Source of the DNA: Bacteriovoracaceae bacterium
GTDB lineage: Bacteria; Bdellovibrionota; Bacteriovoracia; Bacteriovoracales; Bacteriovoracaceae
Assembly (NCBI GenBank): GCA_028101965.1
Contig: JAOHMI010000001.1
Span: 62,001-126,000, forward strand
DNA length: 64,000 nt
Direction of reading: 5' to 3'
Below are positions 1,033 through 53,574 of this stretch, in pieces. Below the pieces are notes generated by a model, which saw only the letters and a program-made list of their open reading frames with translations, did no database searches and was not told where the DNA came from. The translations under genes and the position numbers were made by a program. Every line of letters begins with the position of its first letter. Position 1 is the stretch's first letter.

Positions 1033-1665
1033 ATGATTAAATTTAAAATTATTTTACTTTCATTATATCTTTTGTCTTTTAGCTTTAAACTATCAGCTAT
1101 GGATGAAGTTCAAATTGAGCAGATTCATGTTAATTCCCTTAAATTTACTTATAAACAGGCATCAAAAATTCTCTTAAGTTGTTATGGAGAATTGCCCGTT
1201 AAAAAATACTTTACCTCTTTGGATAAAGTTAAGTTATACAAAGAGCATAAAAATGAGCAAAAGAGCTATGAAGCCTATTTTTATTTAAGCAATATGAAAA
1301 AGAAGGGCCCATTTTTTATCAGTTTTAATTCTAAGGGTGATATTGTATGCGATCATGCCCAATCTATTTTTGCTCCAAAAGGGAAAGAGATTATAAATGT
1401 GAAATTTGAAAGTAGCGATTGGGTTGGCTCTTACTTAAAAGAACTTTTAGGCTGCTGGTGGCGAAAAAATAGAATTAAAGAAACTAGTGTAATTAGAAGA
1501 ATTGATCACTTTCGCTATGACCTAATACCCAATGCAGAGACTCTAGTAAAATTAAAATTCTTTTTTTATGATCCCAAAAACCTTAATGAGCTTGACGGGA
1601 CTGCAACTCTAAGCGCGAATCGTGATAGTAGTATTTCATGTGATATTTCTGATGGGGAAAATTAA
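1033..1665 (+). CDS. Secreted protein of unknown function
   Basis: A 210-residue protein with an N-terminal signal peptide (hydrophobic residues 5-20, likely cleavage after KLSA). The mature part is basic. It has single cysteines near residues 50 and 109 and a CWWRK motif in the middle. No known domain is recognised. No clear Shine-Dalgarno sequence precedes the ATG, but the signal peptide supports this start. It stands alone between a divergent secreted protein and the acyl-CoA synthetase, which has its own promoter. Confidence 0.7.
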   Translation: MIKFKIILLSLYLLSFSFKLSAMDEVQIEQIHVNSLKFTYKQASKILLSCYGELPVKKYFTSLDKVKLYKEHKNEQKSYEAYFYLSNMKKKGPFFISFNSKGDIVCDHAQSIFAPKGKEIINVKFESSDWVGSYLKELLGCWWRKNRIKETSVIRRIDHFRYDLIPNAETLVKLKFFFYDPKNLNELDGTATLSANRDSSISCDISDGEN

Positions 1666-1765
1666 ACTTTCATTTATCCACTAAAATTGAATATTAAAAG
1701 TTTAAAATATTTATTTAATTAAATTTTTTTATCTATAAAACTAATTATCGATTCAAAGATTCAAA

Positions 1766-1795
1766 TTGATATCCTTTTTAATAATGTTTTATAAT
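1766..1795 (+). promoter_or_regulatory. Sigma-70-like promoter for the acyl-CoA synthetase
   Basis: TTGATA (1766-1771) and a consensus TATAAT (1790-1795) are separated by 18 bp, about 50 bp upstream of the ATG at 1844. Base agreement is good, but AT-rich DNA yields such matches by chance. Confidence 0.55.
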
Positions 1796-1843
1796 AAGTT
1801 AAAATACAAATAATACAATACCGTATTAATCGGAGAAACTGAT

Positions 1844-3487
1844 ATGGACAAATCTATATTGAGCCACTTTTATCAATTTGAAAAAGCAAATTCGAATCGC
1901 CCCTTTTTAAAACAACCACTCAAAGGAAAGCCAAGCGTAATTTTAAGTTGGAGTGAAGCAGCCAAAGAGGCAAGGATTTTGGCGAATAAAATAAAATCTC
2001 TCGGGTTACCTGAAAAAAGTAATATTGGGATTCTGTCTAAAAACTGTGCTCATTGGATTATTACTGATTTGGCCATAATGATGAGTGGACACGTTAGTGT
2101 TCCTTTGTATCCAACTCTTCAAGCAGACACCATTAACTATATTCTTAAGCATAGTGAATGCAAATTATTATTTGTGGGGAAGCTAGATACATGGAATGAT
2201 CAAAAAACAGGAAATCTCGATCTTTGTCCTTTGGTTTCTTATCCCTATTGGGAAAATGAGGAGACTACTTCTTGGAATGAGTTTATTAAAGATGCCTCTC
2301 CCTTAGAAGGAGATCTAATTCCAGAAGAGGATGAAATTGCCTCGATTATATATACATCAGGAACCACAGGTAACCCAAAGGGAGTGGTCCATACTTTTAA
2401 AAGTTTATATATTCAAGTTCACGATGCGCTTCAGGAGTTTAAATTAGGAATTGATGATCGCTTTTTTTCTTACTTGCCTTTATCTCATGTTGCTGAAAGG
2501 GCCTTAGTTGAATTTGGAGCAATATATGCAGGAGGTTCAATATCTTTTGCAGAAAGTTTAGAGACTTTCAAGGATGATTTAGTTGAAGCAAAGCCAACTA
2601 TATTTATGGCCGTCCCACGAATTTGGACAAAATTTCAGCAAGGGATTCTGCAAAAGATCCCAGAGAAAAAATTATCTTTGTTTCTTAATATTCCACTTCT
2701 CAATAATATTATCCGCAACAAAGTTAAAGCGGGATTAGGTCTAGATGAAACAATATATTTCTTTACCGGAGCGGCCGCCATTTCAAAAGATTTGCTTCAA
2801 TGGTTTGATCAATTAGGAATTCGTATTTATGAATGCTATGGGATGACGGAAAATTTTTGTATCACTACGATTAATACACCCAGCAATATTAAACTAGGAA
2901 CAGTGGGGAAACAGTTAGGTGCAGGTGAAGCCAAGATTGCTGATAATGGTGAAATCCTCTATCGCGGTCCTGGTGTCATGCAAGGATATTATAAAGACTC
3001 AGAGAATACCACCGAGACAATCGATCAGGATGGATGGCTCCATACAGGGGATAAAGGACAATTTAATTCGGAAGGTTACTTAAATATTACTGGACGAGTA
3101 AAAGATTTATTTAAAACCAGTAAGGGAAAGTATGTGGCTCCAGCACCTATTGAAAATCTTTTTGCTAAAGCAACTATTATAGAGCAAGTTTGCGTAGTGG
3201 GCTCAGGCTTACCCAGCCCTATTGCTTTAGTTATTTTAAGTGAAGATGCAAAAAAACTTAATGAAACTGAAGTTCAAAAGACTCTTAATGATTTATTAAA
3301 ATTGATTAATAATGAAGTGGAAAACTTTGAACGATTAAAAAAGATTGTCATCCTAAAAGATGAATGGTCCGTTGAAACTGGATTGATGACTCCTACTTTA
3401 AAAATTAAGCGTAGTCTAATCGAGAAGAAATATGAACCATATATACACAAGTGGAATAATGAAAATTATACAATAAGTTTTAAATAG
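1844..3487 (+). CDS. AMP-forming long-chain acyl-CoA synthetase
   Basis: A 547-residue member of the ANL (acyl-CoA synthetase / adenylate-forming) superfamily. It should activate fatty acids with ATP to acyl-AMP and then transfer them to coenzyme A at the inner face of the membrane. Visible motifs are the P-loop YTSGTTGNPKG (170-180), a YGMTE adenine-binding motif in the middle, GWLHTGD with the ATP-binding Asp, and the hinge region GRVKDLFKTSKGKYVAP. The last is typical of the long-chain (FadD15/AMP-binding) subgroup. Length is slightly short of the usual 590-600 residues. CGGAGAA lies just upstream of the ATG. The chain-length preference cannot be read from the sequence. The gene is not in an operon with other fatty-acid genes. 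Confidence 0.9.
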   Translation: MDKSILSHFYQFEKANSNRPFLKQPLKGKPSVILSWSEAAKEARILANKIKSLGLPEKSNIGILSKNCAHWIITDLAIMMSGHVSVPLYPTLQADTINYILKHSECKLLFVGKLDTWNDQKTGNLDLCPLVSYPYWENEETTSWNEFIKDASPLEGDLIPEEDEIASIIYTSGTTGNPKGVVHTFKSLYIQVHDALQEFKLGIDDRFFSYLPLSHVAERALVEFGAIYAGGSISFAESLETFKDDLVEAKPTIFMAVPRIWTKFQQGILQKIPEKKLSLFLNIPLLNNIIRNKVKAGLGLDETIYFFTGAAAISKDLLQWFDQLGIRIYECYGMTENFCITTINTPSNIKLGTVGKQLGAGEAKIADNGEILYRGPGVMQGYYKDSENTTETIDQDGWLHTGDKGQFNSEGYLNITGRVKDLFKTSKGKYVAPAPIENLFAKATIIEQVCVVGSGLPSPIALVILSEDAKKLNETEVQKTLNDLLKLINNEVENFERLKKIVILKDEWSVETGLMTPTLKIKRSLIEKKYEPYIHKWNNENYTISFK

Positions 3488-3553
3488 TTTTTTTAATAGT
3501 TAATATTAGACTAAATTAACTCAATTTATTTATCTAGTTTGGTAGCAGAGTTA

Positions 3554-3871
3554 ATGAATATTGAGAAATCTTTAATTTTAATTGATGATGATATCTTAGT
3601 TCATAAAACTTGGAAAATGATGGCCGAAAAAAAAGGTCAAATACTTTTTTCATATTTTGATGTGGAATCGTTTATGAATGATCTTTATTGTTATGATAAA
3701 GATATAAGAATTTTTATTGACTCAAATTTAAAGAACGGTAAAAAGGGTGAAAGAGAAGCTGAAAGAATCACTAAAGTTGGGTTTTTTAATATACATTTAG
3801 CATCTGGGGAGATATTGGATAAACTTCCTCCTTGGATTTTATCGCAAAATGGTAAATGTTTTCCTGATTAA
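3554..3871 (+). CDS. Small receiver-like protein (orphan response regulator)
   Basis: A 105-residue protein that reads like a short CheY-type receiver domain. It has an acidic pair in LIDDDILVH after beta-1 and a candidate phospho-acceptor Asp in FIDSNLKNG after beta-3. A short beta-4 with LASGE (Ser at the usual Thr/Ser position) follows, and a Lys near the C-terminus (NGKCFP) could be the conserved lysine. The alpha-3/alpha-4 region looks shortened, so it may be a degenerate receiver. I chose ATG 3554 over the upstream TTG at 3539 because the fold begins there. No kinase is adjacent. The identification is moderate only. Confidence 0.5.
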   Translation: MNIEKSLILIDDDILVHKTWKMMAEKKGQILFSYFDVESFMNDLYCYDKDIRIFIDSNLKNGKKGEREAERITKVGFFNIHLASGEILDKLPPWILSQNGKCFPD

Positions 3872-3886
3872 TATATCTGTATATTA
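3869..3886. terminator. Possible bidirectional terminator between convergent genes
   Basis: A perfect 7-bp inverted repeat, TAATATA-tctg-TATATTA, sits in the 21-bp gap between two convergent genes and includes the stop codon of the left gene. The stem is purely A/T and therefore weak, and there is no clear U-tract. Confidence 0.3.
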
Positions 3887-3892
3887 CACTTT

Positions 3893-6800
3893 CTACTGAC
3901 AAGACTCACCAAAAAAATCACCTGTTCCTGGATCTCCTCCTTGATCACAGAAGATGTTTATTTCTGAGTTCGTTCCAGTTAATACTTGAGTGCTTCCCGC
4001 AGCAAGAGATAAGTCCCAACCCATAGTATTTAATGTTTCTAGTGCACTAGTCGAATTAAACATATTATCCATATTTATAACGTTACTTGTGTCAAAGTGA
4101 GATAAATCTAAGGATGTAATCGAATTTGAATGTCTAAACATACTATACATAGACGTTACATTAGATGTATCAAAATTACTAATATTCAAAGAGGTGAGAG
4201 CATACATGGCTCCAAACATTGATGCCATTGTATCGACTTTTGAGGTATCAAAATGGGAAAGATCTAAACTAGGCAATGAAATAACGGCCATAAACATCCA
4301 ATCCATATGTGTCACATTTGATGTATTAAAACTTGATATATCCAAATAACTTAATTCGTGCATTGAGGAAAACATGCTCCCCATAGTAGTCACCTTACTG
4401 GTGTCGAAGTGTGATAAATCTAAACTAGTTAATGCTGTACTTGAAAACATTGAGCCCATTTTAGTAACTTTACTGGTATCAAAACTGGAAATATTTAAGC
4501 TGGTTAGTGCATCCATCCCTGAAAACATACCTTGCATGGAAGTTACTTGGGAAGTGTCAAAGTGTGATAAGTCTAAGGATGTGATTTTTTCTAATCTACT
4601 AAAAAGGCTGGACATTGTAGTAACATTACTCGTGTTAAAGCTGGATACATCTAAGTAAGTTAGATTTTCTAAATTATCTAACATGGCTATCATTGAAGTT
4701 ACATTGCTGGTATCAAAGTGAGATAAGTCTAAGGTTGTGAGTTTTTTTAGATTACCAAACATAATATCCATTTTGGTGACAGAACTTGTGTCGAATGAGG
4801 ATATATCAAGAAAAGTTATTTCTTCACAACCATAGAACATCCAACTCATATAAGTCACATTTGAAGTGTTAAAGCTTGAAAGATCCAGACTTGTTAGAGA
4901 GACAGCATTTTCAAACATGCCACCCATGGAGGTAACATTTGATGTGTCAAATGATGAAAGGTCAATATTTTCTAAGGATATTGCTAACTCAAACATTCTG
5001 CTCATAGACGTCACTTCGCTGGTATCAGTAATACCTGCAGTAAAGTCGGTTAAATTTTGCGCTCCTTTAAAAGAGTGTTTTAAATCAGTCCATCCAACTG
5101 TTCCTAGATTGACCACTTCTATTAGTTTGTTTCGATCATCATGGTTATATAAATAAATCGTTTGGAATAATCCGCTAATTGTAATTGTATATTGACCTGG
5201 GTTCGTAAAAGTATGAACCTTATCAGGGTCAGATGAACTTGTGACTGTTCCTACTGGCGATCCATCTCCCCAGTCAACTGTGAAATTATAACTGTATCCT
5301 GCTTTTAGAGGGAGTTCGATGTCTTCATTACTGGAAGTTGTTTGCCAGATTGATATAAAATCACTTGAATTTGCCTCAATGGTAAAACTGCTTGAGGCTG
5401 TGTTTGAGGTTTCACCATTTGCTGTAACAGTATAATTAAAACTCGCCGATCCTGAGTATCCAGGGCTTCCTGTTACTCCAGCGGTACAAACTCCTGAACC
5501 ATTGCAACTACAACTGGTTGTTTCACTTACGTTAATTAGTCCTGATAATGAACATGTCGTGGCCAAATCAATTTCCGGATCAGAGTAACTTAAGGTAATG
5601 ATACTTTCAGTATCTTGGTTAAAGCTCGATGGTGTTATATTGTTTGATACAGGTGGATCATCTACACTGCTAACTGTGATACTTGCACTGGCTGGCGGAG
5701 AAGTTTCTCCATTTGCCGTAACAGTATAATCAAAATCTGCATTTCCATTGTAATTAGAATTCCCTGTTACTCCAACTGTACAAACACCACTACTACAAGC
5801 ACAAGAAGTGGTTACACTGAGATTATTTTCATTACTTATATTACATGAACTAGCTGGATCATTTTCAGGATCACTATATGATAATGTGACTATGGTTTCT
5901 TCATCTTCATTTACTGCTGGCGGGCTAATTGGATCTGACATTGGTGGATCATCCACGCTGCTAACTGTGATACTTGCACTGGCAGCCGGAGATGTTTCAC
6001 CGTTTGCAGTCACTGTATAATCGAAATTGGCAACTCCATTATAATTTGAATCCCCGGTAACTCCAACTGTACAAATACCACTACTACAATCACATGCCGT
6101 ACTAACACTTAAGTTATTTTCTCCGCTAATGGTACAAGAGTTAGCGGGATCATTTTCTGGATCACTGTATGATAGTGTAACTATCGTTTCTTCATCTTCA
6201 TTGACAGCAGGAGGTGATATTGGATCCGACACTGGTGGATCGTCGACACTACTAACAGTGATACTTGCACTGGCAGAAGATGATGTTTCACCATTGCTGG
6301 TTACCGTATAATTAAAGGTTGCATTACCATTATAATTGTTATCGCCAGTAACACCAACTGTACAGATTCCACTGGCACAAGCGCAAGAGGTGGTTACACT
6401 AAGATTACTTTCTCCGCTAATAGCACATGATGTGGCAGGATCATTTTCTGGATCGCTGTATGAGAGAGTAACTATCGTTTCTTCATCTTCATTGACGGCC
6501 GGAGGTGCGATTGGGTCACTCACCGGAGGATCATCAACACTACTTATATTTAATGTTGCAGAACCAGTATTAGAATTTGATCCATTTGTATTAACTTGAT
6601 AGTCAAAACTTCCAACCCCATTATAGTTTGATATTCCAGTTACGCCCACCGTACAAACACCAGAACCATCACACGCACATGGTTGGCTAATCGAAATTTG
6701 ACTAAGGTTAGTGACAGAGCATGATGCTCCTAGGTCCCCATCGGGATCTGAATAATCGAGAGTAATAATACTTTGACTATCCTCCGCTAAATTTGGTGGA

Positions 6801-8098
6801 GTGAAGTCATTGGCAACAGGAGGATCAGGAGTGTTGGTTATATCAAGATTAATCGTACTTGGAGCAGAAGTTTCACCGCCAGCAGTAATGGTGTAGTTTA
6901 ATCCACCTGTCCCACTAAAATTTAATTGGCCAGTAACTCCTACGGTACAAACGCCAGCTCCATCACAACTACATGGAGTTGAAACAAATACTTGAACTAG
7001 GTTATCTACCTGACAGCTTGTAGCTAAGTCTCCCTCTGGATCATCATAGGCAAGGGTTAGAATATTTTCACTTTCCTCTGCAAATGAAGGGTTTGATGCT
7101 GGGGGAACTGGAGTTGGAGCATCATCAATCGAATTTATCGCTAAATTTACTGAACCGATGTCTGAGTCTTCTCCATTAGCATTTACAGTATAGTCAAAAG
7201 AACCATTTCCATTATAATTTGAATCCCCTGTTACTCCAACCGTACATAGACCACTGTTACAAGAACAGGCCGTCGAAACCATAAGGTTTGATAGATTTGA
7301 GATATTACAAGAAGTGGCTGGATTAGACTCATTATCTGTGTAGTTTAGAGTAATAATACTTTCAGAATCTTCGTTGACCGCACTTGGGTTTGTAGCAACA
7401 ACAACCGGTGGGTCATCAATTTGTTGAACATTAAGGCTTGCAGTTGCAGTATTTGTGACTGTGCCTTGATCGGTTTCAATGGAATAATCAAATGAGGCGG
7501 GGCCGGAGTAATTTCCAGGTGCAGTAACCCCAACTTGGCAATACCCAATACCACAAGAACATGGAGTCGTTATATTTAAATGATTGAGGTTTGATATAGA
7601 GCAATTTTCAGGAATCTCTTCTCCATTTCCTGCATAGCTAAGAGTAATTATATTTTCAGCTCCATCGTTAAGAGGCATTGCCGAGTTAATATCCATACTT
7701 GTGGGTTGTTCACTCTCTTCACTACCCAATTCTAATTCAATATTCGCATCAGGTGTGGCTACTTTTTTTTCAGATATTATTTTATAATCGAAATTACCTA
7801 GTCCTTCGTATCCAAAATCACCAGTGATTCCAACAACACAGACATTGATACTACAAGTGCAAGCTGTAGTTACTGATAAATTTACTTCATTCATTATTTC
7901 ACAAGACTTTGCAGGATCGTTCTGATCTCCATTATAATTTAATGTTACAAATCTTTCTTTTGGTATATGCTTTGTTTCTTGTTTTTGTGGTTTGTTAGAA
8001 TTTAACACATTCTGTGCAGAACCTTTGCGCTTCTTCTTCTTTTTAACAGTACTGACTCTAGGTCCACAAGCGCTTAACAATAGAAGGGACAATAGCAT
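3893..8098 (-). CDS. Giant surface lipoprotein with Ig-like and BspA-type repeats
   Basis: A protein of at least 1,401 residues with the lipobox LSAC near its start, so it is probably acylated and sits on the outer membrane. Then come a short Lys/Arg-rich linker and nine tandem units of about 97 residues (about 36-900). Each unit has the shape of a cadherin/Ig-like beta-sandwich and a recurring four-Cys pattern (SC ... CxC ... C) before VGVTG. A PKD-like segment (VDWGDGSPVG ... HTFTNPGQYTITISG, about 905-975) follows. Then come 13-14 BspA-type (DUF285) repeats of 25-26 residues built on LDLSxFDTSxVTSMxxMF, and a Cys-containing tail. Such architectures mediate adhesion or contact. A role in prey or surface attachment is inference. 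The printed start (8098) has no ribosome site; see the finding on ATC 8131. Confidence 0.85.
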   Translation of the reverse strand: MLLSLLLLSACGPRVSTVKKKKKRKGSAQNVLNSNKPQKQETKHIPKERFVTLNYNGDQNDPAKSCEIMNEVNLSVTTACTCSINVCVVGITGDFGYEGLGNFDYKIISEKKVATPDANIELELGSEESEQPTSMDINSAMPLNDGAENIITLSYAGNGEEIPENCSISNLNHLNITTPCSCGIGYCQVGVTAPGNYSGPASFDYSIETDQGTVTNTATASLNVQQIDDPPVVVATNPSAVNEDSESIITLNYTDNESNPATSCNISNLSNLMVSTACSCNSGLCTVGVTGDSNYNGNGSFDYTVNANGEDSDIGSVNLAINSIDDAPTPVPPASNPSFAEESENILTLAYDDPEGDLATSCQVDNLVQVFVSTPCSCDGAGVCTVGVTGQLNFSGTGGLNYTITAGGETSAPSTINLDITNTPDPPVANDFTPPNLAEDSQSIITLDYSDPDGDLGASCSVTNLSQISISQPCACDGSGVCTVGVTGISNYNGVGSFDYQVNTNGSNSNTGSATLNISSVDDPPVSDPIAPPAVNEDEETIVTLSYSDPENDPATSCAISGESNLSVTTSCACASGICTVGVTGDNNYNGNATFNYTVTSNGETSSSASASITVSSVDDPPVSDPISPPAVNEDEETIVTLSYSDPENDPANSCTISGENNLSVSTACDCSSGICTVGVTGDSNYNGVANFDYTVTANGETSPAASASITVSSVDDPPMSDPISPPAVNEDEETIVTLSYSDPENDPASSCNISNENNLSVTTSCACSSGVCTVGVTGNSNYNGNADFDYTVTANGETSPPASASITVSSVDDPPVSNNITPSSFNQDTESIITLSYSDPEIDLATTCSLSGLINVSETTSCSCNGSGVCTAGVTGSPGYSGSASFNYTVTANGETSNTASSSFTIEANSSDFISIWQTTSSNEDIELPLKAGYSYNFTVDWGDGSPVGTVTSSSDPDKVHTFTNPGQYTITISGLFQTIYLYNHDDRNKLIEVVNLGTVGWTDLKHSFKGAQNLTDFTAGITDTSEVTSMSRMFELAISLENIDLSSFDTSNVTSMGGMFENAVSLTSLDLSSFNTSNVTYMSWMFYGCEEITFLDISSFDTSSVTKMDIMFGNLKKLTTLDLSHFDTSNVTSMIAMLDNLENLTYLDVSSFNTSNVTTMSSLFSRLEKITSLDLSHFDTSQVTSMQGMFSGMDALTSLNISSFDTSKVTKMGSMFSSTALTSLDLSHFDTSKVTTMGSMFSSMHELSYLDISSFNTSNVTHMDWMFMAVISLPSLDLSHFDTSKVDTMASMFGAMYALTSLNISNFDTSNVTSMYSMFRHSNSITSLDLSHFDTSNVINMDNMFNSTSALETLNTMGWDLSLAAGSTQVLTGTNSEINIFCDQGGDPGTGDFFGESCQ
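3990..5045 (-). repeat. BspA-type (DUF285) repeat block
   Basis: Thirteen to fourteen repeats of 75-78 bp encode the DLSxFDTSxVTSMxxMF consensus near the C-terminal end of the large lipoprotein. The repeats keep protein identity better than DNA identity, which suggests an older expansion than the Ig-like units. Confidence 0.85.
5650..6540 (-). repeat. Near-identical 291-bp tandem repeats
   Basis: Three neighbouring Ig-like units repeat with an exact 291-bp (97-codon) period. The same DNA string CTATCGTTTCTTCATCTTCA begins at 6181 and 6472, with a two-mismatch version at 5890. High DNA similarity points to recent duplication and makes this block prone to unit gain or loss. Confidence 0.85.
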
Positions 8099-8306
8099 AT
8101 AGCTTATTGTTTTTGAAAATGAAGTTTTGATACTTCTCTCCTCTGTCCCCTTACCTCTGACAGATAGATATAGTTTAATGTAAAAGATGAATGATTTTAG
8201 TTAATTTCAGTAACTCTAGCCGGTTATATCTCGGAAATTAAAGAATTTGTGCCAATAATAATTGCAAGAAAATGAATCATTCTGTGAGACGAAAGTAAGG
8301 AGCCTA

Positions 8307-9770
8307 TTATTTGAGGTTTAGAGTATCCTCGACCTTCTTTTGATATTGAAGAGTTAATTTTTTAATTTTTTTGTCTTTAACTAAGTTTGTTTCATTTGAT
8401 TGCATAATGGAGTTATATTTATTTTCATACCAATTAGATAATTCTTCTTCTTTTATTAAATAGTCTTCTTTCTTGCTCTCAATAGTTGGTTTTTTGAATT
8501 TATTTAGATTGTTATCTGAGTAATTATAATGATCTTTTCTTTCATTAATTTGAGGAAAAAAATGATTACTTATTTTTTTTATATTTTTTTCATATATTTT
8601 AACTAATTTTTGGATTGTTCGAGTTTTATATTTTACTTCAAGATTTAAATGCATAATTCTCTTGGCCTCGGCTTCATACCAGGTGGAGAGCTTACTAATT
8701 TCTTGTTCAAATGTTAGGTCGCTTCCCTCTGCTAGCTGAGGAGGGTTTTCAATATTATAAAAACTTGTATCTGCATTCTCACTTTCCTTAATTCTATTTT
8801 CTTGATTAGATTGTTTTTGATTATAGTTTGGATCTTTTTGAAAAGGTTCCTTTTCGCTTGGAAAAATATATTGATGATCAATTTGTGTTTTTTTTGTTTT
8901 CCCCCATTCCGCCATATAAGAAAAGCCGGGAAGGTCAAATACGACTCCTATGGCGAAGAGAATTGTAAATAAAAAATACACGCGTGGAATGATACAAAAA
9001 AAAGTAAAAGTGGAAGACTTTGCCATATAAAGTATAATTGAAGCAAAAATACTTCCGAGAGTTAAGTAGGGTAAAAAAATCAGAAGAAAATATAAGAAAC
9101 CATTATTCCAGTTAGGAATTAGATTTGCTTCATGCCCAATTAAAAATCCACTAAAAACTCCCAAAAAAGCCCAAATGACAATAAGAAAAATGTTTATGCC
9201 CACATGAACGGCCAAATTCATTATATGAAAAACTTCATCATCAACTTTGTTACCTTCAATGATTGGAGGAATTTCATTTTGATTGTACTGCTTAACTTGA
9301 AGATCAATTGTTTCTTTTTCGAGAGTATGAACGGCTTTTTGCAAATCATGATTAGAGTTGAATCGAATCACATAATAGTAAGGGTGATTATTGATTTTTA
9401 TACTTAATCGGGAAGGATCAATTTGTGATATTTGGTTTATTTCAGTATACGTTATTAATTCATTTTTAATGATATTTAATAATAATCCGTTTTCAAAAAT
9501 ATAAAATTTGGGATTCATACTGTTGTGGGTGGCGCCATGTACACTCCAGTCAGTATCCCGATTAATAAATGTATTAACTTTTAATTTTTGATGACACTTA
9601 TAAATAGACTTAGTTTCAATATGAAATAAAGAAGATGATAGATTTATATCTGATAGTTTAATGATGAATTTTTGCCCTGCCTTAAATATTGGATAAATTT
9701 TCTTGATGCTACTGGTCGCTAATAAAACCAGTGCAACTAAAAATATTATTAAAGGAAAGTATTCAACCAT
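8307..9770 (-). CDS. Membrane protein with C-terminal repeated helical domain
   Basis: A 487-residue protein. It has an N-terminal membrane anchor (residues 6-20), then a soluble beta-rich region (about 35-165) that resembles DUF3592-type domains, with ATHNSMNP and YYYVIRF segments. A cluster of three membrane helices follows (about 188-212, 224-248, 258-280), then a hydrophilic linker. The C-terminus has two related amphipathic segments (357-400 and 441-484), both with LSxWYE at the front and a Lys/Gln-rich helix behind. Function is unknown. It starts 4 bp after the stop of the 108-residue secreted protein, so the two are probably co-transcribed. The DUF3592 similarity is from pattern only. 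Confidence 0.7.
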   Translation of the reverse strand: MVEYFPLIIFLVALVLLATSSIKKIYPIFKAGQKFIIKLSDINLSSSLFHIETKSIYKCHQKLKVNTFINRDTDWSVHGATHNSMNPKFYIFENGLLLNIIKNELITYTEINQISQIDPSRLSIKINNHPYYYVIRFNSNHDLQKAVHTLEKETIDLQVKQYNQNEIPPIIEGNKVDDEVFHIMNLAVHVGINIFLIVIWAFLGVFSGFLIGHEANLIPNWNNGFLYFLLIFLPYLTLGSIFASIILYMAKSSTFTFFCIIPRVYFLFTILFAIGVVFDLPGFSYMAEWGKTKKTQIDHQYIFPSEKEPFQKDPNYNQKQSNQENRIKESENADTSFYNIENPPQLAEGSDLTFEQEISKLSTWYEAEAKRIMHLNLEVKYKTRTIQKLVKIYEKNIKKISNHFFPQINERKDHYNYSDNNLNKFKKPTIESKKEDYLIKEEELSNWYENKYNSIMQSNETNLVKDKKIKKLTLQYQKKVEDTLNLK

Positions 9771-9774
9771 AAAG

Positions 9775-10101
9775 CTAGTTTTTGGAAAAAAACTTATCTC
9801 TTGAATCTTTAAGCTTTAGCTTTGGAGTTTCAACTTCAACCCGGCCTCTTTGAGTTGAAACCACATGACATGTGCTTCCTTTCGATCCGATCCAGGCCAT
9901 ATAATAAGCTTCAGACTTTCTATTTTTATCCACTGTAATATTGACAGGGATTGGGTTTTTAGGTGAGGGGGTTAGCTTGAAGCAAACTTCTGCTGTCATA
10001 TCCATATTATTTGAGCGGTCTAATCGGTACCAATTTAAAATTTTCATTTCATAGCTATAAGATAATTGGCTTAAAAGCATAAGTAGTGCGATATATTTCA
10101 T
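9775..10101 (-). CDS. Small secreted protein of unknown function
   Basis: A 108-residue protein with a signal peptide (KYIALLMLLSQLSYS, cleavage near residue 16). The mature part is about 90 residues, basic, with two cysteines (in EVCFKL and STCHVV) that could form a disulfide. The start at 10101 is chosen over the in-frame ATG at 10119 because AAGGA lies 6 bases upstream of it and the signal peptide then begins correctly. It lies between the MoxR cluster and the downstream membrane protein, all on the same strand. Confidence 0.7.
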   Translation of the reverse strand: MKYIALLMLLSQLSYSYEMKILNWYRLDRSNNMDMTAEVCFKLTPSPKNPIPVNITVDKNRKSEAYYMAWIGSKGSTCHVVSTQRGRVEVETPKLKLKDSRDKFFSKN

Positions 10102-10230
10102 TGTAAATCCTTTTATCAATTAATTTATTTAAGTTTAAACCAGTTGATAATCATTGTCGTTAATTAAATGCTCACAACCAAATACAGTTAAAGTTATTTA
10201 AATGAGTGGTGTTTTTAAATAGGATTGTCT

Positions 10231-12231
10231 TTAGTTTCTTCTAATGTAAATCTTAAATTGATGGAATTGATGTCTAAAGTTTTTCTGATCTTTGGAGTTG
10301 AAATCGAGTATCTTTCCAAATTCAATTTTAGTGTAAATATCTCCAAGGGAGAGAGAAATCTCACGTAAAACTTTGATGTCGATCGCACTATTTTTAGTGG
10401 GAAGAATTAAGGGGGGGGGAGCTAATTTATTTTCATAGTAAATTTTTTGAATGCTGGAAAAAAATACTTGGTATTTTTGTTTTGCTTCAGAAACAAATGA
10501 ATCAGTATTGGGGATTGCATTCAGGTCTTTTAAAATTTCTTTTTTTAGTTCGGGACTAATTTTAATTTTATCTTCATCTAGGTATTTTTTTTGTTTAAAT
10601 TTTTGAAAAAAGTAGAAAAAGGCAATTAGAGCAAAGATATAGGGAATCGAGTTAGCAATTTTTAGTAACATTTTTTTTATTTTTAATAGAATTCTGTCCA
10701 AAATGCTAATTTTTTGTTGTGAATTGATAGGCTTGGGAGGGTTATTTCTAGTATCTTCTCTAGCCCTCGTGTCGTTTCGGTCTTTTTCTTTTTCTGTGTT
10801 CCCTATGTCCTTCGTGCTACTTATCTTATTTGTATCCTTTATTTCTTTTTCTTTTTGGAGTTCTCGCACAATTTTGTTAAATTGTTTGTTAGTATTTTCA
10901 TGAATATCTTTAGAGTTTTTCATAAGTGAAGGATTTGAATTGTTTTTTTCATTTTTACTTTCAGATTTTAAAAATTTTTTTGCAAGAGATGCTTCTTGAA
11001 TTTGTTTAACTATGTTACGAAGGTTCCTTTGTTTTTTCTTTAGTTTACTTTGCATTGATTTAAGTTTTTCTTTTTGGACTTTATATTTCGTTACCGACTT
11101 GAAGTTTTTAAAAACCGTATCAGGTTTAATTTGCAAGTCATGACTCAATTGATTAATAGCATTACTAGATAAATCCATATCCATTTTTAAATTAGCCAAT
11201 TCTTGTTTTATTGAACCTGAATCTATGTTTTGATTTGATCTAATTTTTTTTTGCAATTCATTCATTCTATTTTGGTTTCGCTTTAAGGTACTATTTAAGC
11301 TACCAAGCTTGATATTGATATTTTTCATCCCTTTTAATTCCATAGATCTTAACAATTTAATGGATTCTTCACTTAGTAGATCTTTATTAATATCAGGGTC
11401 ATTACTTAAACTTATTTCAGATTTTTTATGTTCAGGAAAAGCTTTTATGAGGTAATCAAAAAAAGACTGATCTTTATTTTCTACAATTTTATCAATAAGT
11501 AGAAAAAGAGTTAGGAAGATGATGAAGCTAGGAAGAATTTTTTTGAATGAATGAACAATATTTAATTCAAAACTTAGGTTAAAGTTTTGAGAAAATTTTA
11601 ATTTTTGGATTAAGCTGAGGCCAATGAAAAAGAGGAGGATGATAGAAAAGACAATTAAATAAGAGAATAGGTTATTGCTACTGCTTAATATACAGGTGTA
11701 AATGAGTATATAATACAAATTAAAAATTAAAATATTCCAAACAGGGAATGCATAAAAAGTTACAATTAATGGTAGTACAACGGCGCTTGTTAAAATTACT
11801 GAATTAATATCATTTTGAGATATGAAATTAGAAATGAGAGGAAAAATCAAAATAATCAAAAAGATTGGTATAACCTTCCTTGCCAATCTTAACTCATGGA
11901 TTAAACCTTTAACATGCTCAATTTGATTTTCTTTATCTTTAGAGTTGTATTTAAAGCCTATTCCTGCGATATTTAAGTTGTTCTTGTCTTCTTCAAATAT
12001 ATCTTCATTTAACAAAAACTTTGGTTTCTCAATTGGGTTGGTTAGTTTTAGATCCTTCGTGATAATTCCGCTTGCTCTGATTACTAGAGGAATGAAGATC
12101 AAATTAAAAAGAGCCAATCGCGTATTACCATTCGGAAAAGATTTAAAGAAGAAATAGAAAAAGAGAAGATTGAAAATTATTAAAAAAAAGGCAATTTCTT
12201 CAATCTTAAATTTTTTATTTTCTACTTTCAA
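10231..12231 (-). CDS. Membrane protein with long coiled coil, partner of the MoxR/DUF58 pair
   Basis: A 666-residue membrane protein. Two N-terminal hydrophobic segments (about 12-30, 40-55) are followed by a bundle of membrane helices (about 118-250). A long charged coiled-coil and low-complexity stretch (about 290-500) comes next, then one more membrane helix (about 527-543) and a helical C-terminal domain of about 120 residues. In MoxR/DUF58 operons this third position is often a transglutaminase/DUF4129-type membrane protein. The C-terminal domain has the size and place of DUF4129, but no transglutaminase Cys-His-Asp triad is visible. It overlaps the DUF58 gene by 17 bp, which supports translational coupling. 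Confidence 0.75.
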   Translation of the reverse strand: MKVENKKFKIEEIAFFLIIFNLLFFYFFFKSFPNGNTRLALFNLIFIPLVIRASGIITKDLKLTNPIEKPKFLLNEDIFEEDKNNLNIAGIGFKYNSKDKENQIEHVKGLIHELRLARKVIPIFLIILIFPLISNFISQNDINSVILTSAVVLPLIVTFYAFPVWNILIFNLYYILIYTCILSSSNNLFSYLIVFSIILLFFIGLSLIQKLKFSQNFNLSFELNIVHSFKKILPSFIIFLTLFLLIDKIVENKDQSFFDYLIKAFPEHKKSEISLSNDPDINKDLLSEESIKLLRSMELKGMKNINIKLGSLNSTLKRNQNRMNELQKKIRSNQNIDSGSIKQELANLKMDMDLSSNAINQLSHDLQIKPDTVFKNFKSVTKYKVQKEKLKSMQSKLKKKQRNLRNIVKQIQEASLAKKFLKSESKNEKNNSNPSLMKNSKDIHENTNKQFNKIVRELQKEKEIKDTNKISSTKDIGNTEKEKDRNDTRAREDTRNNPPKPINSQQKISILDRILLKIKKMLLKIANSIPYIFALIAFFYFFQKFKQKKYLDEDKIKISPELKKEILKDLNAIPNTDSFVSEAKQKYQVFFSSIQKIYYENKLAPPPLILPTKNSAIDIKVLREISLSLGDIYTKIEFGKILDFNSKDQKNFRHQFHQFKIYIRRN

Positions 12232-49718: not shown

Positions 49719-50048
49719 TTGGTAAATACTTTTTTACTATTGGTAACTTTTTTATCATTTTCACTTTATTCATTTGATAACAAATGCACTTTTTCCAGTG
49801 GTTTTCATTGGGTAAAATTAAGTAAGGGAAAATTTGATGTCGAAGTAAAATCAACAATGTCTCCTTGGGTTAAATACTGTGCAAAAGACATTTTAGTAAT
49901 AGATAAGAAAAACAAAGACCAGGAACAAGTTTATGGCTTGATTAGAATTGGTAAATTTAATTTTATGGACATGGAAAGAAAACCTCAATATATATATGGT
50001 TGTGTCTATGCATCAGCAAGCAATCATATAATTTATTGCAGAAAGTAA
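49719..50048 (+). CDS. Small secreted protein of unknown function
   Basis: A 109-residue protein starting at TTG 49719, with AAGGGGAG a few bases upstream. A signal peptide follows (hydrophobic 4-15, cleavage near LYSF-D). The mature part has four cysteines (KCTF, YCAKD, YGCVY and the C-terminal YCRK), which suggests two disulfides. It lies just after the thioredoxin-like gene, which may act on it. No family is recognised. Confidence 0.65.
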   Translation: MVNTFLLLVTFLSFSLYSFDNKCTFSSGFHWVKLSKGKFDVEVKSTMSPWVKYCAKDILVIDKKNKDQEQVYGLIRIGKFNFMDMERKPQYIYGCVYASASNHIIYCRK

Positions 50049-50057
50049 TTTTGATAT

Positions 50058-50744
50058 CTAAAAATTATAAGTGAGGGCCGGGTAAAAGTTTATTTGTCCA
50101 TTTGGAGAAAAATTTTGGTTGAGACCAAAAATCAGCTTTTCTTCTTCACTTTCAAAATAGTAATTATAAGAAAATATAACCACATTCGTTCCGGCTAAAA
50201 AGTAAAAAATATTCTTTAGACTTTCCTCGGGTTTGCCGACATAAATATTTGTTAAGTATTGAAGTGTAAGGATTGAAGTAGTGGCAAGAATAGAGTTTCT
50301 TTTAGCTCTCTTCTTTATAGCTTTGGCTTTCAAATTATGAATGTAGAAATCATTTGCACTTAATAGTTTATTTTTTTTTGAAGTTTTTTTAGTTTTAATT
50401 TTCTTAGCAAATGATTTATTTAACTTATTCAGGTCTTTTTCGTAATATTCTTTTATTCCAGATCCAATATTAAAAACACCAATTGCTTGAACACCTGAAT
50501 AAGCAAGCTTTAACGTATAGGCATCAGAATTAAAATAGCCTAAATTTCCAATAATAGTTGCAGCTGATCCAGAAATTATTTTTTGTAGATAGCGGGGTTT
50601 ATCTTTATTCTCATATTCTTGAAAATAAATCCTCTCAGCAGCTTCTTCTAGGTTTTCTTTTTCAATTTTTTTCTCTTTGGCATTGATTTTTAGACTAATC
50701 GAAAGCCAGAGAAAAATAAATATAGGTAGATTGTTGATCCTCAA
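50058..50744 (-). CDS. Envelope protein of unknown function, last gene of the operon
   Basis: A 228-residue protein with a signal peptide (5-20). Residues about 57-100 are small-residue-rich and hydrophobic, then comes a Lys-rich stretch (about 108-150), and the rest is beta-like and ends LTYNF. A terminal Phe is common in outer-membrane barrel proteins. Its first 50 bp overlap the end of the upstream barrel-like gene, a strong sign of coupled translation. No family is recognised. Confidence 0.65.
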   Translation of the reverse strand: MRINNLPIFIFLWLSISLKINAKEKKIEKENLEEAAERIYFQEYENKDKPRYLQKIISGSAATIIGNLGYFNSDAYTLKLAYSGVQAIGVFNIGSGIKEYYEKDLNKLNKSFAKKIKTKKTSKKNKLLSANDFYIHNLKAKAIKKRAKRNSILATTSILTLQYLTNIYVGKPEESLKNIFYFLAGTNVVIFSYNYYFESEEEKLIFGLNQNFSPNGQINFYPALTYNF

Positions 50745-51783
50745 TATTAAATCCTATTATTTCTCGTTCATTACTGAATACGAGACCAATTTTTGAAAAT
50801 TCATTTCCAAAATTAATTGCCATCGTTTGAATATAGTCATTATAACTGGCCATTAGAGTTAGATATTCGATATTGTAAAAAACACTATAAACAATATAAT
50901 CTTCAAATATGAAATCCATATGATCTTTATGGGGTAAAGGAGAGCTTACTTCGACTCCAATATCACCATAGTTAATGTTATAGCTTTTCCCAAATCCTAG
51001 TTTTAGATAACTTGAATAATGATAGAGGCTTTCCAAAGATTCATCATCATTTATGAGATCTGATTTTTGTTGATAGTTACTTCCAAAGTTTTTAGCAACG
51101 ATAGACCAATTTGGTATAAAAGGTGAGGAAAATTCTCCAAGTAAACCAATATCACTCTGAAGATTATTAAATGATTCCTGTTCAAATAATTTTTGAGCAG
51201 AGTCGTTATCGTTGAAATCGAGAGAGTCAAATGATTGAATCAGTCTATTTCCAGAAATATACCTTACGCTTGCCCCGAGAGTGAAAGAGAAGTTTGGGTT
51301 AGTGAAAACTTCCTTTGAACTAGTTAAACTAAGTGTACTAAAATTTGAGTAATTAACATTTGCTTTTAAAATTGCAGGGTTAAATACAAGAAGATTCGAC
51401 ATTATATAGTTTGGTGAATAATTTAATGCAAAATATTTGTTTATAAGAGAAATTTCAGTATACGAACTAAAAGAATTAAAATTCTCTTGTTCAAGTATTT
51501 CTCGTAATTTATTCTCTTCAATTTTTTCAAAGAAAATGTTCTGAGTATTATCAATTGCATCTCCCTCAGCTTTTCCGAGGGCTAGAAAATTTAATACCCC
51601 TTTTTCTTTATACTTGTGTTGTAGGGCAGGATTACACTGGTAGGATGTTTGACCAATGTAGTTTACGGTACAAGCACTATTAAGACTAAGTGACTCAAAC
51701 GAAGAATTAGGCTTTATTAGATGTATCGTTTCGTATCCGAACGCATTATCGAACGAGAGCAATAAGAGTAGGACTAGTAGCAT
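50695..51783 (-). CDS. Outer-membrane barrel-like protein
   Basis: A 362-residue protein with a signal peptide (1-16). The mature region has many alternating polar/hydrophobic strands, aromatic-rich (LSLINKYFALNYSP-like segments, FSFTLGASVRYISG, YLKLGFGKSYNINYG, STYIYFSLAFD). This fits an outer-membrane beta-barrel of perhaps 10-14 strands. Two cysteines near the N-terminus (SACTV, YQCNP) may pair. It overlaps the upstream lipoprotein gene by 10 bp. No known transporter family is recognised. Confidence 0.65.
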   Translation of the reverse strand: MLLVLLLLLSFDNAFGYETIHLIKPNSSFESLSLNSACTVNYIGQTSYQCNPALQHKYKEKGVLNFLALGKAEGDAIDNTQNIFFEKIEENKLREILEQENFNSFSSYTEISLINKYFALNYSPNYIMSNLLVFNPAILKANVNYSNFSTLSLTSSKEVFTNPNFSFTLGASVRYISGNRLIQSFDSLDFNDNDSAQKLFEQESFNNLQSDIGLLGEFSSPFIPNWSIVAKNFGSNYQQKSDLINDDESLESLYHYSSYLKLGFGKSYNINYGDIGVEVSSPLPHKDHMDFIFEDYIVYSVFYNIEYLTLMASYNDYIQTMAINFGNEFSKIGLVFSNEREIIGFNIEDQQSTYIYFSLAFD

Positions 51784-52676
51784 AAGGCATTAACTGCTTT
51801 TTTCTTGGCAATTTGAAAGGAATAGCTATTTATTTGGCCAAGTTTTTCATCGAGTTCTTTATGGCTAATATAGTTATTGGTAAAAAGTTTAGATTTACTC
51901 TTTGAAAGCTTTGGATTCGAGGCTAGTATTTCGTAGACTCTAGATATTTTTGCATTAGCAAATTGAAGTTGATCATACTTTAAATTACAAACTATTATGG
52001 AAAAAACATCATTTGCTTTTTGTGGAAAGGCATCTTTTAAATAATTAATTATTAATACATGGGCGAGGACTTCTTTATAAAAAATAAACTTTTTGATTAG
52101 TTTGTTGTCATCTCGTGCAAGTTTAGATGATTCTTCATCGCATAAATTCATTGCTTGGAGGAGATCAAATCGTTGATCCGTTGACAGGTTTGGTATTTTA
52201 ACAAAAATTGGTAAGTGATTGTTTATAAATCTAGAATAGATATAAATTCTCTTAAATAACTCTCTAGTCGTTGGAGCCATTTTTTCATCCAAAAGATTTT
52301 GCATTAAGTTGTCTTCATAAAATGAATCAGGCTTCTCTTTTTCTTTTTCTTCGTCTTCACTAAAATTTAGTGAGATGAATGGTTTTTTAAAAATATAGTC
52401 TTTTAATATTGGGTATAAGGAGAAGACATCAATCCCTGCTCTTGAAGCGTAAGCGCTAGTTAATTCAAGCTTTACGTTAGGGTCGTCATTCTCAGTTAAG
52501 CTTTTTTCATAATAGTAGATAGACTTAGAATGTTTTCCTTCATTTTGAAATCTTCTGGCTAAAGTTAAGTCAGATATGTCTTCAGATCGAGATTTTCTTT
52601 CTCCGCATGAGAAAATGAAGATTGAAAGTAGGCAGACATTGATAAATGATTGACGATAATTATTTTTTAAATTCAT
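51774..52676 (-). CDS. Lipoprotein with TPR-like N-terminal region
   Basis: A 300-residue protein beginning at ATG 52676, with a lipobox IFSC at about residue 24. ARRFQNEGKHSKSIYYYEKSL resembles one tetratricopeptide helix pair, followed by mostly helical sequence with a Glu/Lys/Asp-rich insertion. The start at 52676 is preferred over an upstream ATG (52721) because it gives a normal signal peptide; GGAGAAG lies about 12 bases upstream. It overlaps the end of the preceding gene by 17 bp. Confidence 0.7.
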   Translation of the reverse strand: MNLKNNYRQSFINVCLLSIFIFSCGERKSRSEDISDLTLARRFQNEGKHSKSIYYYEKSLTENDDPNVKLELTSAYASRAGIDVFSLYPILKDYIFKKPFISLNFSEDEEKEKEKPDSFYEDNLMQNLLDEKMAPTTRELFKRIYIYSRFINNHLPIFVKIPNLSTDQRFDLLQAMNLCDEESSKLARDDNKLIKKFIFYKEVLAHVLIINYLKDAFPQKANDVFSIIVCNLKYDQLQFANAKISRVYEILASNPKLSKSKSKLFTNNYISHKELDEKLGQINSYSFQIAKKKAVNALCY

Positions 52677-53574
52677 TTTTAAACATAACTTCTCCGTCAA
52701 CAGAAGGAACCCATTTGTCACCTCTAAAGGTAGATCGATGGAGAGTTATTTTCTCAGGAGAAATATTTATAATGTTATGAAACATAAAATCTTCGAAAGA
52801 AACATATGTCATTATATAATCTTTATTAAATTTTAACCCTGTTTTTTCATTGTAAGTTAAGTCTAATGTATCGATTTTAATTTCATCATAATAGATACCT
52901 TCGTCAGATCTAAGAAGGGTAACGTTTGGTTTCGTTGATTTAATTTGAATAGACTTTGCAGTTTCATTTACCTCTGCAGATATATCCTCGCTAATAGTAA
53001 AGTTATAATTGCTTCGGTCTTTAATACTTAGAAGATATTTTATAATATTAAATATTTCGATTTTCGACTTCTGATTTTTAATTGTTAATACTCGGTAAGT
53101 ATCTTGTTTGTTTTGAATGTCGTAAGTTAGTGTTTCAATTTGGTTGAGATTATTAATATTCCCTTTAATCAGGCTACTCTCATATTCTTGATTATCCTCG
53201 ATACTGAAATTTCCCTCTGGGCTTAGCTGAAGTTTATAGTAAAGTTTTTCAATTAAGGCTTGAGTCTTAATCTTCTTTCCTTTCTTCACAGTTCGAAAAC
53301 TAGTGTTTTCGTCAAAGGAAATTTTAATGGCATAGTCAATTTGGTCAAAAATCTGATTTAAAGCATTTGAAACTTGTTCTATTGGGATAATTTGATCTCG
53401 AATATTTCTTTTGGCTGAATCTTTTTTTCCGATTTTCTCTTTATCTTTTTTGTCTACATAATCTTGATTGGGATTTTGTTCGACTTTTGAGCACGAAAGT
53501 AATCCAAGTGAGATTATTGTAAAGAAAAAGGTAGTAAAAAGGTTTTTATAATAGTTGTTTATTAAGAAAGACAT
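52660..53574 (-). CDS. Lipoprotein of unknown function, first gene of the operon
   Basis: A 304-residue lipoprotein with lipobox LLSC (about residue 28), a Lys/Asp-rich linker and a beta-rich domain. ATG 53574 is chosen over ATG 53616 because AGGGG is about 10 bases upstream and the signal peptide then starts normally. No family is recognised. It heads a four-gene run in which each gene overlaps the next, so all four proteins probably form one envelope assembly. Confidence 0.7.
   Translation of the reverse strand: MSFLINNYYKNLFTTFFFTIISLGLLSCSKVEQNPNQDYVDKKDKEKIGKKDSAKRNIRDQIIPIEQVSNALNQIFDQIDYAIKISFDENTSFRTVKKGKKIKTQALIEKLYYKLQLSPEGNFSIEDNQEYESSLIKGNINNLNQIETLTYDIQNKQDTYRVLTIKNQKSKIEIFNIIKYLLSIKDRSNYNFTISEDISAEVNETAKSIQIKSTKPNVTLLRSDEGIYYDEIKIDTLDLTYNEKTGLKFNKDYIMTYVSFEDFMFHNIINISPEKITLHRSTFRGDKWVPSVDGEVMFKNEFKK

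Follow-up and report, generated by a model that had tools for sequence, protein, structure and literature searches.

The described systems closest to the locus analysed here all belong to the outer membrane. PorV, PorQ and PorP of the type IX secretion system (T9SS), which are members of the FadL superfamily, are 14-stranded barrels with an NPA-type N-terminal hatch, and the FadL/TodX channels (Toluene_X, PF03349) have the same fold and motif. BamD and BamA are a known case of an outer-membrane TPR lipoprotein that acts with a barrel. For transmembrane proteins and complexes of the outer membrane that are not barrels, the helical SlyB-type proteins provide a precedent (reviewed in PMC13067283). 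The strict eight-residue consensus of the beta-signal contains glycine (PMC10945584).

In this study, we analysed four genes (A, B, C, and D) in a window of 64,000 nucleotides, which is the whole stretch of DNA under analysis, from the metagenome assembly (2.78 Mb, completeness 66.6%) of a Bacteriovorax-like bacterium assigned to Bacteriovoracaceae and its order. Genes B, C, and D were found to recur as a linked cassette in Bdellovibrionota, with C as a predicted FadL/PorV-type barrel, B as a TPR lipoprotein, and D as a predicted helical envelope protein with an outer-membrane-type C-terminal strand.

Organization of the locus

The features of the locus are as follows.

53574-52660, minus strand: gene A, a predicted lipoprotein of 304 aa upstream of B (reading frame, lipobox, SD-like AGGGGA)
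52676-51774, minus strand: gene B, a lipoprotein of 300 aa with an N-terminal TPR-like region (alignment, TPR_19 in relatives)
51783-50695, minus strand: gene C, a predicted FadL/PorV-type 14-stranded outer-membrane barrel of 362 aa with a signal peptide (AlphaFold2, Foldseek against PDB)
51625-51672, minus strand: hatch motif of C, Cys38...Cys50-Asn51-Pro52-Ala53 (alignment conservation)
50744-50058, minus strand: gene D, a predicted helical envelope protein of 228 aa with a TTG start inside C (AlphaFold2)
50058-50090, minus strand: outer-membrane-type strand at the C-terminus of D, NFYPALTYNF followed by the stop codon (tally of the D family)

An earlier note on this DNA had described four overlapping genes of unknown families, two of them for lipoproteins, and the reading frames agreed with this description. 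The start codon of B (ATG at 52676) lies within A, whose end is at 52660, giving an overlap of 17 bp. The overlap between B (end at 51774) and C (start at 51783) is 10 bp, and that between C (end at 50695) and D (TTG start at 50744) is 50 bp. The two lipoproteins are A and B, both of which carry a lipobox. No significant match to Pfam, NCBIfam, or PHROGs was obtained for any of the four proteins, the PHROGs search returning nothing useful, and promoter and terminator scans of the locus gave matches at the level of shuffled sequence.

The four genes come after uridine kinase-like and RNase J-like genes on the minus strand. Next to D, two genes lie convergently on the plus strand, encoding a secreted protein of 109 aa and a thioredoxin-like protein; the former (window positions 49719-50048) showed a weak match to the PA3694 family (0.046).

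Among the 69 loci holding both C and D, and with the start of D taken as that of the longest reading frame, the two genes overlapped at 65, at 44 of them by exactly 4 bp, indicating that their coupling is not due to chance. Overlaps of 53-59 bp, similar to that in the window, were found at loci L119, L122, L123, L125, and L126.

Conservation and linkage of B, C, and D

Within the order, C was found in 21 of 129 genomes, representing 14 of 48 genera. When the survey was extended to the phylum (369 genomes), 72 genomes were matched by the D profile, and strong matches to D abutted a strong C at 72 of 74 loci; the remaining two were splits at contig ends, with D and C on separate short contigs of the same genome. 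Every strong B locus in this set abutted C (64/64), and all 71 genomes with D also contained C (hypergeometric 1e-65, uncorrected for relatedness). C stood without D at 15 places, three of which were contig ends, leaving about a dozen loci; accordingly, D is not obligatory for C. At the loci of the order carrying B or C, the three genes occurred together except at contig ends, and the genes flanking them varied from locus to locus.

The common gene order was B-C-D. In five loci of Bacteriovoracaceae, B had been moved or inverted and still adjoined C-D: it lay downstream and convergent in L053, L058, L059, and L062, and downstream in the same direction in L055. Linkage that persists after such rearrangement is stronger evidence of a shared job than a single inherited operon would be. 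Hence, the suggestion in the earlier note that the genes encode subunits of one complex gained support for B, C, and D from their co-occurrence in relatives and from their adjacency after rearrangement of B, and lost it for A, which has no relatives detectable by sequence. Its proposal of a machine peculiar to this lineage was too narrow, as the cassette was present in ten families of Bdellovibrionota. Bdellovibrio is one of the genera concerned, its genomes carrying the Bdellovibrio-specific 16S primer sequence.

Several loci were unusual in their composition. One contig (C49 of genome G128) held two complete B-C-D cassettes, L045 and L046, separated by about 18 kb. In genome G023 (L052, positions 3728-7446), genes for an ABC ATPase, an MlaD-type (MCE) protein, and an extra TPR lipoprotein preceded B-C-D on the same strand, a single case that hints at lipid transport. 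In genome G093 (L064, positions 1468-5616), two copies of B flanked a winged-helix (HTH_29) gene on the opposite strand, perhaps a transposase, and C followed the second copy.

The cassette of Bdellovibrio bacteriovorus

One of the genomes with the cassette, G132, is presumably that of B. bacteriovorus HD100. The gene beside D in this genome encodes 627 aa, of which residues 516-627 matched PDB entry 8oks (9e-74). The MAT fibre protein Bd2740 is also 627 aa long, and the structure of its residues 517-626 has been solved (PMC10769870). The size and the match together indicate that the cassette adjoins bd2740, a prey-recognition fibre gene, which is convergent to the D gene (L134, positions 2729-4612). 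The cassette is probably bd2741-bd2743, according to a numbering that we infer; among the papers searched, none named Bd2741-Bd2743 and none described the cassette. In G139 (L135), the 627-aa MAT gene was not in the same position beside the cassette. A link to MAT fibres based on one convergent neighbour is too weak to serve as evidence.

Gene C, a FadL/PorV-type barrel

The earlier note had also called one of the products barrel-like, which was borne out by the AlphaFold2 model of C: a barrel of 14 strands, each 7 to 23 residues long, was predicted (pLDDT 79.9, pTM 0.78), and the top folds found by Foldseek were PorV and FadL. Against the PDB, PorV of type IX secretion (8gl6_F) ranked first with E=9.6e-8, FadL (3pgu) was found with E=1.0e-7, and ranks 1 to 12 were all PorV or FadL. 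Since the TM-scores were about 0.5 with high rmsd, the assignment of the modelled protein to the FadL/PorV fold class is safe and a closer one is not.

The protein starts with a signal peptide. A CNPA sequence at residues 50-53 occupies the position at which FadL carries its hatch motif, and Cys38 lies twelve residues before it. Among 24 sequences from several families, Cys38 was invariant and Cys50, Asn51, and Ala53 were conserved in at least 90%; a CNPA-like motif was present in 70 of 80 relatives. A disulfide between Cys38 and Cys50 that staples the hatch is predicted from this conservation. C thus combines a modelled 14-stranded barrel and an NPA hatch with PorV and FadL as the nearest solved folds, which places it in the FadL/PorV superfamily.

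By sequence, the window copy of C gave no match to Toluene_X (PF03349) or to T9SS PorV above the curated cut-offs, and its relatives gave weak matches below them (Toluene_X, 0.044 at best; PorP_SprF, 0.0038), together with a faint TraF_2 signal. A search of PDB sequences with the C profile returned nothing useful.

Gene B, a TPR lipoprotein

B has the lipobox FIFSC with the lipid-bearing Cys24. In an alignment of 19 sequences, Cys24, Cys230, and Cys299 were invariant, and TPR_19 was detected in nine of 19 relatives (best, 8e-6); the window copy itself had no Pfam match. The first 75 residues of the B profile matched TPR proteins in a PDB profile search. B therefore carries the lipobox and, as seen through its relatives, the repeats of a TPR lipoprotein. 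A long insertion seen in most Bacteriovoracaceae is missing from the window copy, which is similar to the shorter B proteins found in other families.

A looser B-like family was present in 243 of the 369 genomes, and at least eight of its loci were located beside weak C-like barrels. Paralogous pairs of a B-like lipoprotein and a FadL-type barrel, with no D, were observed at L066 (positions 8557-10674) and L136 (positions 5190-8353), the latter having barrel-like genes on both sides of B; a paralogous barrel matched Toluene_X at 0.0028, below the Pfam cut-off. The pairing of a TPR lipoprotein with a FadL-type barrel is thus an older theme in the phylum.

Gene A, a predicted upstream lipoprotein

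A has the lipobox LLSC with the lipid-bearing Cys28, and an SD-like AGGGGA precedes its ATG at 53574. Neither Pfam nor NCBIfam gave a match. Lipoproteins of similar size in A-like positions were found at L053, L063, L119-L121, L123-L126, L154, L155, L172, and L173. At 11 loci of other families, a lipoprotein of about 270-345 aa was encoded immediately upstream of B, and the majority of these were recognisably related among themselves. A lipoprotein is also encoded at the equivalent place in the window, L053, and L063, and the C proteins of these three clustered in a tree.

Homology of A with the upstream lipoproteins of other loci was considered and rejected, because profile, pairwise, and profile-profile searches were all non-significant (hmmsearch against the A-like proteins of other families, 0.35 in a set of 178 proteins; hhalign probability, 0.5%); they are positional equivalents only. 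A is best read as an accessory lipoprotein present in some lineages only, and it may be either a fast-changing accessory subunit or an independent replacement.

Gene D, a predicted helical partner with a strand-like C-terminus

The AlphaFold2 model of D was all-helical (pLDDT 78), consisting of four glycine-rich helices, two of which extend into a long hairpin. It had no fold match in the PDB, and a search of PDB sequences with the D profile gave nothing useful. The maxima of Kyte-Doolittle hydropathy over 19 residues were mostly 0.8 to 1.5 for the helices, which are thus marginally hydrophobic. The signal peptide of the window copy ends at INA|KE, and an SPase I-like site was found in all 68 D proteins by a lenient regular expression.

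The last residue of D was Phe in 65 of the 68 proteins, and Phe together with alternating hydrophobic residues was found in 64; the same combination occurred in 12 of 312 further long reading frames taken from these loci, many of them spurious. A hydrophobic residue two positions before an aromatic last residue was found in 62 of 68 D proteins versus 3 of 67 proteins with a crudely defined signal peptide. The strict glycine-containing consensus (PMC10945584) was matched by only two of the 68 tails, and the tail of the window copy was poorly modelled (pLDDT < 50). D hence has both the signal peptide and the alternating C-terminus ending in Phe that mark BAM-assembled proteins. As its model is all-helical, D was not filed as a beta-barrel protein; we read the terminal Phe and alternation as a sign of delivery to the outer membrane.

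Discussion

We regard it as modestly probable that B, C, and D form a single complex of the outer membrane in which they have the roles outlined below and A is accessory. C would be a conduit or docking barrel whose N-terminal NPA hatch is stapled by the Cys38-Cys50 disulfide. B, anchored in the inner leaflet beneath C, would recruit or hand over cargo. D would be a Sec-exported protein that its beta-signal-like C-terminal strand directs to the outer membrane, where its glycine-rich helices would pack against C. The physical association, the outer-membrane site of D, and the disulfides are what we infer from these comparisons. An outer-membrane assembly or transport machine, as the earlier note had supposed, would be consistent with such an arrangement, and our guess is that it moves a hydrophobic molecule as FadL does rather than a protein as PorV does. 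It is a tentative and rather unlikely proposal that D represents a new class of outer-membrane protein, helical and glycine-rich with a BAM-type C-terminal strand, and that the conduit it would form with a FadL/PorV barrel and a TPR lipoprotein is specific to Bdellovibrionota.

Mere chance neighbourhood of unrelated envelope genes might be argued from A, which lacks sequence relatives, and from the flanking genes, which differ between loci; this reading is refuted for B, C, and D by their linkage across ten families and by the fact that B has been rearranged independently without losing its adjacency, and with A as its remaining case it is highly improbable. Another possibility is an envelope-spanning unit, in which C and B are in the outer membrane and are connected to D, a four-helix protein of the inner membrane, or receive cargo that D supplies from there. 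The four modelled helices of D are of membrane-spanning length, its first and second inter-helix loops are neutral to acidic, and its hairpin is basic. However, the hydropathy of the helices is low for Sec-inserted ones, cleavage of the signal peptide would leave the basic hairpin on the periplasmic side, against the positive-inside rule, and the C-terminal Phe pattern would serve no evident purpose in a protein of the inner membrane. We consider this unit unlikely.

That the cassette is a PorV-like module for protein export or surface anchoring, with C carrying exported proteins across or to the surface and the clients possibly including the Bdellovibrio MAT fibres, appears distinctly unlikely. 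It accords with PorV in the type IX secretion complex as the top fold match of C and with the position of the HD100 cassette next to the fibre gene (PMC10769870); however, the fibre gene and the cassette are convergent and do not form one operon, and the corresponding place beside the G139 cassette is not occupied by the 627-aa gene. SprA_N (PF14349) was found in none of 12 genomes, with the control genomes equally without a match.

Through this analysis, what were four anonymous genes in an incomplete metagenome can be seen as a recurring outer-membrane cassette, which is directly testable because it is present in the genetically tractable predator HD100. If D does prove to be helical, located in the outer membrane, and equipped with a beta-signal, this signal would no longer be specific to barrels. 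If C, B, and D move hydrophobic prey products or anchor prey-recognition fibres, the cassette would bear on predator feeding or attachment.

Comparison with known systems

With PorV, PorQ, and PorP, C shares the 14-stranded barrel and the NPA-type hatch, and its best solved folds fall within this branch (8gl6_F and 6h3i_F); it differs in showing no significant match to the T9SS family models and in the paired cysteines that bracket the hatch. To our knowledge, T9SS has no counterpart of B or D. The FadL/TodX channels are similar to C in fold, length class, and NPA motif, whereas FadL functions with neither a TPR lipoprotein nor a helical partner. B and C resemble BamD and BamA in that an outer-membrane TPR lipoprotein is paired with a barrel, and the B profile matched the BamD chain of F. 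johnsoniae (0.0016) within the lipobox and TPR region only; unlike BamA, C is not an Omp85 protein. D is comparable to SlyB-type proteins as a putative non-barrel transmembrane component of the outer membrane, a likeness with no sequence similarity shown; D differs from SlyB in not being a lipoprotein and in its beta-strand-like C-terminal tail.
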